Origin: an uncultured Armatimonadota bacterium
Lineage (GTDB): Bacteria; Armatimonadota; Armatimonadia; Armatimonadales; Armatimonadaceae
NCBI GenBank assembly: GCA_903910385.1
Contig: CAIVZM010000018.1
Location: 124,001-188,000, forward strand
Length of the DNA stretch: 64,000 nucleotides
Direction of reading: 5' to 3'
Part shown: positions 42,777 to 45,099 of the stretch, in pieces
Layout: every line of letters begins with the position of its first letter
Numbering within the stretch: position 1 is the stretch's first letter
Position numbers and translations under genes: made by a program
Notes under the pieces: model-generated
Databases searched by the model: none
Told to the model about the DNA's origin: nothing
What the model saw: only the letters and a program-made list of their open reading frames with translations

Positions 42777-44591
42777 TCACTTGAACGAGGGCAGGATGAT
42801 TCCGCGCAGGATGACTTTCTGCGCTACGAGGAAAACCAGCAGGGTGGGAAGCGCGGCGAGGGTCAGCGCCGCCATAATGACATACTGCGGCGCCTTGTCC
42901 TGCAAATCATAGAGCCATACCATCAGAGTCCACATGTTCGGATTCTGGCAGACGACCATCGCGAAAAGGAACGCGCCATACGCGGCAGTAAAAGCGTTCA
43001 GGGCGATCACAGAAAAGATCGGAAGCGAAAGCGGGACGGTTATCCGCCCGAACATCATCAGTTCGCTGGCTCCGTCCATAGTCGCCGCCTCATACAGTTC
43101 GCGGGGCAGGCTGTCAAAGAAGCCCTTCAGCAGAAAGATCGAAAATCCGCTGGCAAGCGACGGAAGAATCAGCGCCGCGAACGTATTGAGCAGGTTCAAT
43201 TCCTTCAGGAGCAGGAAGTTGGGGATCAGGACGACTTCCGCCGGGAATGCCATCGTCGCCAGAATAAAGACCAGCGCATGGTATCCGTAGGGCAGGTTAT
43301 AGCGCGATAAAGCGTAGGCGCACATCGGATTGACGATCAACGCCCCCAAAATGGCGAGCAGACAGAATAACAAAGTATTCCAAACCGCTTTGCCATGTAA
43401 CAGAATGAACCCCGTCACCGATTTGAAGTTTCGGGTTGCGAACTCCATCCGCAGATTTCCCGCATGCTCCTTCACATAAGCATGGTCATCAAAGGCGATG
43501 GGCGGGACAGAGCGGAAGGACTGCGGTTGGGATTTGCCTGTGTTCGCATCCCGCCAAAGGTTTTCGGTAGAGTTCGCCCGAAGCGCAGTAAGCGGCGCAG
43601 CGGAAGCGATAAATTCCATCCAATCGGTACGGGGTTGCCCGGAAAGAGGTATCTCCGTTGGTAACTGAGCTTCGGTAGCGTTCGCGCGGTTTCGTGCAGT
43701 CAGAAATTGACGCCATGAGGGAAGCGCGGCGGCATCCACCTGAAGCATTCGCAGGGGGAATTTGGTTCGTATAAACTTTTCCCAGTCGGCGCGTCGGGCG
43801 ATTCCGCCTTTTTCGGCAGCATCCGGCGCGGTCGGGGGCAACAGAATTTCCTGCCAGGTTTTATAACTCGTCCCCCAGGCGACATTGAGATTCTCGATTT
43901 TGTCTTCGTACCGATCCTGTCGCAGAAAGGTCTGATATACCGGGTCCAAACGGACGGGAATCAGATAGTTTTCCGGCAGGGACTGGCGAAATTTATACCA
44001 GTACTGGATTTTGGGATTGGTCAAATCGGGCGCCCATTCGCGCAGGGCGGTACGCTCGAACGGCGGAGTAACGCCATCAAAAGACCCATTTTCTTCCGTC
44101 CATGCGACGTTCAGGCGCCCGATATCATCGCCGAAATCCTGACGTAACCGGTCACGAAAGCGCAGCAGCAACAGGGAGGGCGCGTTGTCATGTTCGCCGA
44201 ACCCGACTTTGAAATAGGAATCCGGGAGCGTCTTTTTAAAGCTCCGCCATGCCGCAATCGCTTCCGGCGATTCTGATATCGCTGTCGGCGGAAGGACATC
44301 GATGGGTTTCGCAAAGTCGGTATTGTAAGCGGCGTTGATTTCGTCCAGATTATTGGCGTACTTGTCCTCCGCGTACTTGGCGAAAAGCAGGTTCTCGTCG
44401 TACCAGTAACGCGGAATCAGCGCCTTCGGAGTGAAATCATTGAAGTCTGTCTGACTTTTGGTGGCGACCGATATCATCAACAGGAACGGATAAAGCGTGG
44501 TAATCGCCCCGAGTATCAGAATCACATAAAGGGCTGCGATTCCGAGACGAACCCGGGGCGATTTCCGCCCGACCTGTGCGATATGGGCCAC
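42777..44591 (-). CDS. Sugar ABC permease (MalG type) with a ~340-residue repetitive insertion
   Basis: At 604 residues this is about twice the normal length for a MalG-like permease. The ends are normal: first membrane segment (LYVILILGAITTLYPFLLMI), then from residue 400 the usual five further segments with the EAA motif ELYEAATMDGASELMMFGRI and PLSLP. Between them, residues about 55-395 form an extracytoplasmic insertion of four or five diverged modules. Module cores are YANNLDEINAAYNTDF, FGDDIGRLNVAWTEENGSF and YEDKIENLNVAWGTSYKTW, each followed by a W..F....LP segment (WRSFKKTLP, WYKFRQSLP, WEKFIRTKFP, WMEFIASAAP). The LNxAWGTxYxxW pattern recalls a segment of GH42-type beta-galactosidases. 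Start is GTG directly after the upstream stop (TAA GTG). No MalF, ATPase or binding protein is nearby. Confidence 0.85.
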   Translation of the reverse strand: MAHIAQVGRKSPRVRLGIAALYVILILGAITTLYPFLLMISVATKSQTDFNDFTPKALIPRYWYDENLLFAKYAEDKYANNLDEINAAYNTDFAKPIDVLPPTAISESPEAIAAWRSFKKTLPDSYFKVGFGEHDNAPSLLLLRFRDRLRQDFGDDIGRLNVAWTEENGSFDGVTPPFERTALREWAPDLTNPKIQYWYKFRQSLPENYLIPVRLDPVYQTFLRQDRYEDKIENLNVAWGTSYKTWQEILLPPTAPDAAEKGGIARRADWEKFIRTKFPLRMLQVDAAALPSWRQFLTARNRANATEAQLPTEIPLSGQPRTDWMEFIASAAPLTALRANSTENLWRDANTGKSQPQSFRSVPPIAFDDHAYVKEHAGNLRMEFATRNFKSVTGFILLHGKAVWNTLLFCLLAILGALIVNPMCAYALSRYNLPYGYHALVFILATMAFPAEVVLIPNFLLLKELNLLNTFAALILPSLASGFSIFLLKGFFDSLPRELYEAATMDGASELMMFGRITVPLSLPIFSVIALNAFTAAYGAFLFAMVVCQNPNMWTLMVWLYDLQDKAPQYVIMAALTLAALPTLLVFLVAQKVILRGIILPSFK

Positions 44592-45032
44592 TTACGCCCC
44601 GTTCTTCTTGGAGTTGAGATACGCTTCCTCGGCGGCATCCAGATCGCGAGCGGTGGCGCGACGCGCTTCGTCCGCTGCGGATTTATCCGCTGGCGTTGTG
44701 GCAGCCGCTTTCAAATCGTTGATAGAGGTCAATATAGCGTAGTTCAAGGCGAAGTTCTTCTCACGTTCCGCCGCGCCGCGCCGCGCCTCTTCGGAAAGCC
44801 GGTCCAGATACTTCTTACGCTCGGACGATTCCGATTCTTCATGGCGCTTGAGAATATCGCGGGGCAATGTTTCCCTATCGACCAGCACGGAAGCTTCTTC
44901 CCCGTATACCTTCAGAACCGTTCCCGTCAGATGGGCGTAATGGGGGTAGTACATACCGCTTTTGATATCCGCTGCTGTCTGATCACGGGCGATCACAGTG
45001 ACTCGGTCACCTTGCTTATATTTTACAGGCAT
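44592..45032 (-). CDS. SH3-like/KOW-like protein with helical tail
   Basis: The 146-residue protein starts at ATG 45032 (MPVKYKQGDRVTVIARDQTA). Residues 1-60 look like a small SH3/KOW barrel (GDRVTVI, HLTGTVLKVYGEEASVLVDR); residues 65-146 are a charged helical region (KKYLDRLSEEARRGAAEREK). A GTG-started frame ten codons longer is less likely. Its TAA is immediately followed by the GTG of the permease gene, so the two are translated in tandem. Family not recognised; a possible accessory protein of the transporter. Confidence 0.6.
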   Translation of the reverse strand: MPVKYKQGDRVTVIARDQTAADIKSGMYYPHYAHLTGTVLKVYGEEASVLVDRETLPRDILKRHEESESSERKKYLDRLSEEARRGAAEREKNFALNYAILTSINDLKAAATTPADKSAADEARRATARDLDAAEEAYLNSKKNGA

Positions 45033-45099
45033 TTTTGTCGTTCCAATTTCGTCTGCGCTCACGCAGATTTTTTCGTTCCGGGGAAGTATTACGATAGTG

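Follow-up and report, generated by a model that had tools for sequence, protein, structure and literature searches.

The permease gene and its insert

Within the window, the whole stretch of 64,000 nucleotides analyzed here, one gene encodes a MalG-type ABC permease of 604 residues that begins with GTG and carries a repeat insert (Table 1). The plus-strand frame over the same positions is riddled with stop codons, so malG is read from the minus strand. The core matches PF00528 in Pfam (E 4e-14), and the BPD_transp_1 core and EAA motif mark the protein as a permease of the MalG/CUT1 type. Residues 403-599 align with E. coli MalG, the best PDB match by sequence (E 3e-17), and MalG is also the match to the core fold found with Foldseek. 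Core helices, EAA motif and membrane order are shared with E. coli MalG and UgpE (CUT1), but those permeases have no repeat insert in the loop between helices 1 and 2 and work with a separate soluble binding protein. Membrane helices are placed by hydropathy at residues 11-44 and 400-430, and the insert (residues ~60-380) sits in the loop between them. The N-terminus is basic, with four K/R and no D/E within residues 1-18. Together with the hydropathy profile, this predicts that the ~320 extra residues between the first two membrane helices are periplasmic. An assembly or frame artefact was rejected, since more than 30 other genomes carry the same architecture. The small ORF upstream of malG has weak L21e/KOW similarity and also precedes malG in those relatives of the same family for which enough sequence is available; no match to it was found at malG loci of other families.

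Table 1. Positions in the window of the permease gene, its parts and the adjoining ORF
Feature	Position	Strand	Evidence
MalG-type permease gene with repeat insert	42777..44591	-	ORF, Pfam, alignment to MalG
First membrane helix, residues 12-43	44463..44558	-	AlphaFold2 helix 12-43; hydropathy 11-44
Module 1, residues 65-123	44223..44399	-	Module HMM 45.1 bits; own-genome search E 2e-11
Module 2, residues 144-206	43974..44162	-	Module HMM 33.5 bits; own-genome search E 3e-8
Module 3, residues 215-279, copy nearest GH42	43755..43949	-	Module HMM 58.2 bits; Pfam GH42 27.3 bits
Degenerate module 4, residues 287-333, HMM match 301-333 only	43593..43733	-	Module HMM 18.1 bits
Module 5 remnant, residues 342-375	43467..43568	-	Alignment with relatives keeping module 5 intact
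Permease core, residues 395-604	42780..43409	-	PF00528 at 437-598; Foldseek to MalG 3rlf_G E 5e-8
EAA motif ELYEAATMDGASELMM, residues 498-513, ATPase contact	43053..43100	-	Sequence; alignment to MalG
Small KOW-like ORF, ends directly at malG start	44592..45062	-	Sequence; kept upstream of malG within same family only

The insert is a genuine tandem repeat. From 34 near-full-length homologues, with the insert of homologue L002 divided into five modules, one profile was made for each module from its own orthologous columns alone, and all 10 pairs of profiles matched each other (probability 97.6-99.5%, E 3e-12 to 2e-22). Column-shuffled profiles reached a probability of 7.1% at most, and windows of the permease core 1.6% at most. 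A module HMM was also built from 121 modules, with the window MalG and close relatives left out; against it, the top score among 1000 shuffled inserts was 6.3 bits. A chance or low-complexity repeat was rejected on these profile-profile comparisons and shuffle controls. The module is ~62 residues long, with the consensus xxADALYRKFLEERYGGDIAALNKAYGTDYASFEEVPLPATLPADPRLLADWEEFVRKATLP. The ancestral number of modules is five. In the window MalG, modules 1-3 are complete, module 4 is a half module whose first half is lost, and module 5 is a remnant for which the search with the module HMM gave no match. The sequence-only reading had assigned the same coordinates, without a strand, to a full MalG-type permease with an EAA motif and an extracytoplasmic insertion of four or five diverged modules; all of this has held up, on stronger evidence than was first claimed, and the repeat motifs that it picked out are real.

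The insert is predicted to be an ordered repeat array. An AlphaFold2 model made with 29 aligned homologues has a mean pLDDT of 83.9 and a pTM of 0.79, with block pLDDT mostly 84-96 across residues 61-350, and a disordered linker was rejected on this confident model. In the model, a full module consists of a helix (~12 residues), a short helix, an extended loop with a proline turn, a second long helix (~13) and a three-residue strand. The 50 best matches listed by Foldseek against the PDB were all ABC permease subunits or complexes and do not address the fold of the array, and a search of a viral library gave no match for the insert. Mean identity is 37% for the insert vs 70% for the core, and the insert thus evolves faster than the core.

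Relation to GH42 enzymes and distribution

A resemblance to GH42 glycoside hydrolases had been noticed from the sequence alone and is borne out by profile searches. In Pfam, GH42 (PF02449) matches residues 219-275 with 27.3 bits vs a cut-off of 21, and the match lies above the cut-off in the window MalG and in five of the six homologues scanned, always at profile positions ~144-216 of 376. A catalytic GH42 domain was rejected, because only this non-catalytic segment of the profile is matched; the window MalG lacks a catalytic TIM barrel with its acid/base Glu and nucleophile Glu. When the module profile was compared with solved structures, GH42 beta-galactosidases came out on top (E 3e-9 to 4e-8, with 1KWG at 3e-9), while beta-amylases, agarases and other glycosidases matched more weakly. 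By profile comparison, the modules are homologous to the segment that follows the catalytic acid/base in GH42-like beta-galactosidases, as it does in 1KWG, 8IBR and large GH42-like proteins of Armatimonadota. However, GH42 enzymes hold a single copy inside a full catalytic domain, whereas the window MalG family has up to five tandem copies and no catalytic domain. The non-permease module matches fetched from the phylum are proteins of 750-1500 residues; each is matched by GH42 in Pfam and contains one clear copy of the module.

In BiBga42A (8IBR), the matched stretch comprises residues 173-236, and since this falls between the acid/base Glu160 and the nucleophile Glu318, it contains no catalytic residue. 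Trp200 of BiBga42A, which corresponds by alignment to Trp182 in 1KWG, contacts sugar in the neighboring subunit. The permease modules are without the five-residue stretch (AFWSQ in 1KWG) that holds this Trp. The sampled GH42-like proteins of the phylum lack such a stretch too, so its absence is no permease-specific loss. The helical arm of GH42-like enzymes is either the source of the modules or a homologue of them, and the breadth of distribution suggests that the transfer went from enzyme to permease. Part of an enzyme fold would then have found a second use away from enzymes, repeated in tandem within a membrane transporter. For annotators, a Pfam GH42 match on these permeases should not be taken to mean beta-galactosidase activity.

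The search for other permeases with the same insertion found it in 147 of the 291 Armatimonadota genomes and in Verrucomicrobiota, Phycisphaerae and Omnitrophota MAGs, the spread beyond Armatimonadota being a lower bound. Of 74 modules from a divergent set, 72 have as their best match the module at the corresponding array position in another lineage; the five-module array therefore arose once, before these lineages split. Changes to the array after its origin were mostly losses. In the Fimbriimonadaceae-like lineages f14 and f15, a single module is clear and the other matches are weak; every near-full-length member examined keeps one module or more. Three MalG homologues (L005 8001-10007, L006 2878-4872 and L008 4156-6285) have a second insertion of 60-80 residues inside the core, apparently a two-helix membrane hairpin. 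The L005 record is labeled Actinomycetota; its locus resembles that of L006, from Phycisphaerae, and the contig is possibly mis-binned.

The partner permease with a fused binding protein

In most relatives, the gene next to malG encodes one chain of 820-985 residues. In this chain, a signal peptide is followed by a PF01547 binding-protein domain, then by a membrane helix and finally by a MalF-type permease. Pfam finds SBP_bac_1 and BPD_transp_1 in one protein in these malG-adjacent partner orthologues. In the window genome, the partner is unlinked to malG and lies on another contig (G000:C67:98823-101297, 825 residues). It is homologous over nearly its full length to the fusions of relatives, with a signal peptide and a membrane helix at residues 490-519. 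From this orthology and from co-occurrence, it is probably the cognate MalF and binding protein of the window MalG. Among the 291 genomes of the phylum, 136 have both genes, 11 only malG, 10 only the fusion and 134 neither; these counts are uncorrected for relatedness, and several of the single-gene cases are incomplete genomes or weak matches. The two genes are adjacent in 38 genomes and 90-850 kb apart in ten genomes in which one contig carries both. Neither malG with the insert nor the fusion is listed in four sister genomes of genus g4. The MalF part of the partner has a loop of only ~27 residues at the position of MalF-P2, and a single-sequence structure model of the partner was of low confidence (pLDDT 39) and was not used as evidence. 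Two MalK-type ATPases are encoded elsewhere in the window genome, unlinked. The genes neighboring malG include no consistent neighbor and so give no clue to the substrate.

The same genome encodes two further fusions of a binding protein to MalF, of 847 residues (L020 2167-6112, on C22) and 867 residues (L021 3066-6509, on C25). Each adjoins its own MalG: one has 453 residues and, in the loop between helices 1 and 2, a small insert of another kind; the other has 280 residues and no insert.

Possible roles of the array

The best explanation, put forward with about even confidence, is that the window MalG forms a type I sugar importer as its second permease subunit, that the first subunit carries the binding protein on a tether, and that the array docks or steers this tethered protein. 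The partner chain runs from signal peptide through binding domain and membrane helix to MalF, leaving the binding protein covalently tethered. In MalG, the first periplasmic loop is predicted to bear up to five helix-helix-loop-helix modules in a rigid array. Judging from its position and from the partner, the array may project above the periplasmic mouth and dock or steer the binding domain there. In E. coli, such docking falls partly to MalF-P2, which is absent in the partner, and partly to the MalG loop that hosts the array here. ATP would be supplied via a shared MalK-type ATPase encoded elsewhere. Residues 70-72 of E. coli MalG are periplasmic and directly contact MalE, whose N-lobe works mainly with MalG (PMC3150292). 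Residue 85 of E. coli MalG aligns with residue 403 of the window MalG, so that residues 70-72 fall in the insert-bearing loop. By this analogy, docking is the most likely reading of the insert. Several findings speak against it, however. The fusion on C25 pairs with an ordinary MalG without an insert in the same genome, and a tethered binding protein therefore needs no such array; docking cannot require all five modules, since f14 and f15 keep one clear module; and the insert diverges faster than the core.

The sequence-only reading had proposed a possibly sugar-recognizing domain that replaces or docks a binding protein. Docking stands as one option, and replacement was rejected, since the specific partner, with which the permease co-occurs, has a sugar-binding protein fused to MalF. 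An unlikely use of sugar recognition would be an array that binds cell-surface glycans and either passes substrate on to the tethered binding protein or concentrates it for that protein, as could be suggested by the homology of the modules to a glycoside hydrolase segment, by the residues of the GH42 segment that complete the active site of a neighbor, and by the 11 Trp, 13 Tyr and 22 Phe of the insert. However, the homologous GH42 stretch carries no catalytic residue and the modules are without the five residues that hold the sugar-contacting Trp, both of which weaken the case for sugar recognition, and the partner already has a dedicated sugar-binding domain. Sugar binding by the array is possible but less supported than docking.

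The array could instead be a structural spacer or brace that, for instance, sets the distance to peptidoglycan or stabilizes the permease pair, with no specific contact to the binding protein. The rigid, regular predicted fold, the variation of module number among lineages and a conservation below that of the core are consistent with this role, but it is considered improbable, because the array occurs with one particular fused partner and sits in the loop whose E. coli MalG counterpart contacts MalE. Slow decay of a functionless relic of gene fusion is less probable still: the window copy has degraded modules 4 and 5, and f14 and f15 have a strongly reduced array, but this old array, with its matches by position across lineages, has kept its reading frame and its ability to fold in several phyla, and no near-full-length member examined has lost all of its modules.

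Along with docking, it is tentatively proposed, at somewhat less than even confidence, that a sugar-importer permease took up part of a glycoside hydrolase without catalytic function, multiplied it to five copies and turned it into a dedicated periplasmic docking solenoid that acts alongside the fused binding protein. The result would be a distinct importer architecture, found across Armatimonadota and in some Verrucomicrobiota, Planctomycetota and Omnitrophota. With its fused binding protein and its GH42-related repeats, this CUT1 sugar importer would be a variant on known importers. Literature searches found no earlier description of such fusions or inserts in the open library, which omits most subscription papers. 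The architecture, with the binding protein tethered to one subunit and the repeat array on the other, is conserved and widespread. The pair of MalG and fusion offers a testable case for the mechanism by which a tethered binding protein reaches the translocation path.

Among known systems, MalF-P2 of E. coli is likewise part of a sugar-importer subunit with a large extracytoplasmic insertion beside the binding protein (PMC3150292), but it belongs to the other subunit and to another loop and has no GH42-like repeats; it comprises residues 91-271, far more than the short loop of the partner. The partner has its binding domain covalently on a permease subunit and is in this sense a substrate-binding-domain fusion importer, as are OpuA and GlnPQ, in which the substrate-binding domain is fused to the transmembrane subunit (PMC11065425, PMC8025302). 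However, these belong to other transporter families, and the extra domains there are the binding domains themselves. Another one-chain arrangement occurs in the window genome, where an ORF of 671 residues (L019 130-2142, on C5) apparently joins MalF-type and MalG-type permeases.
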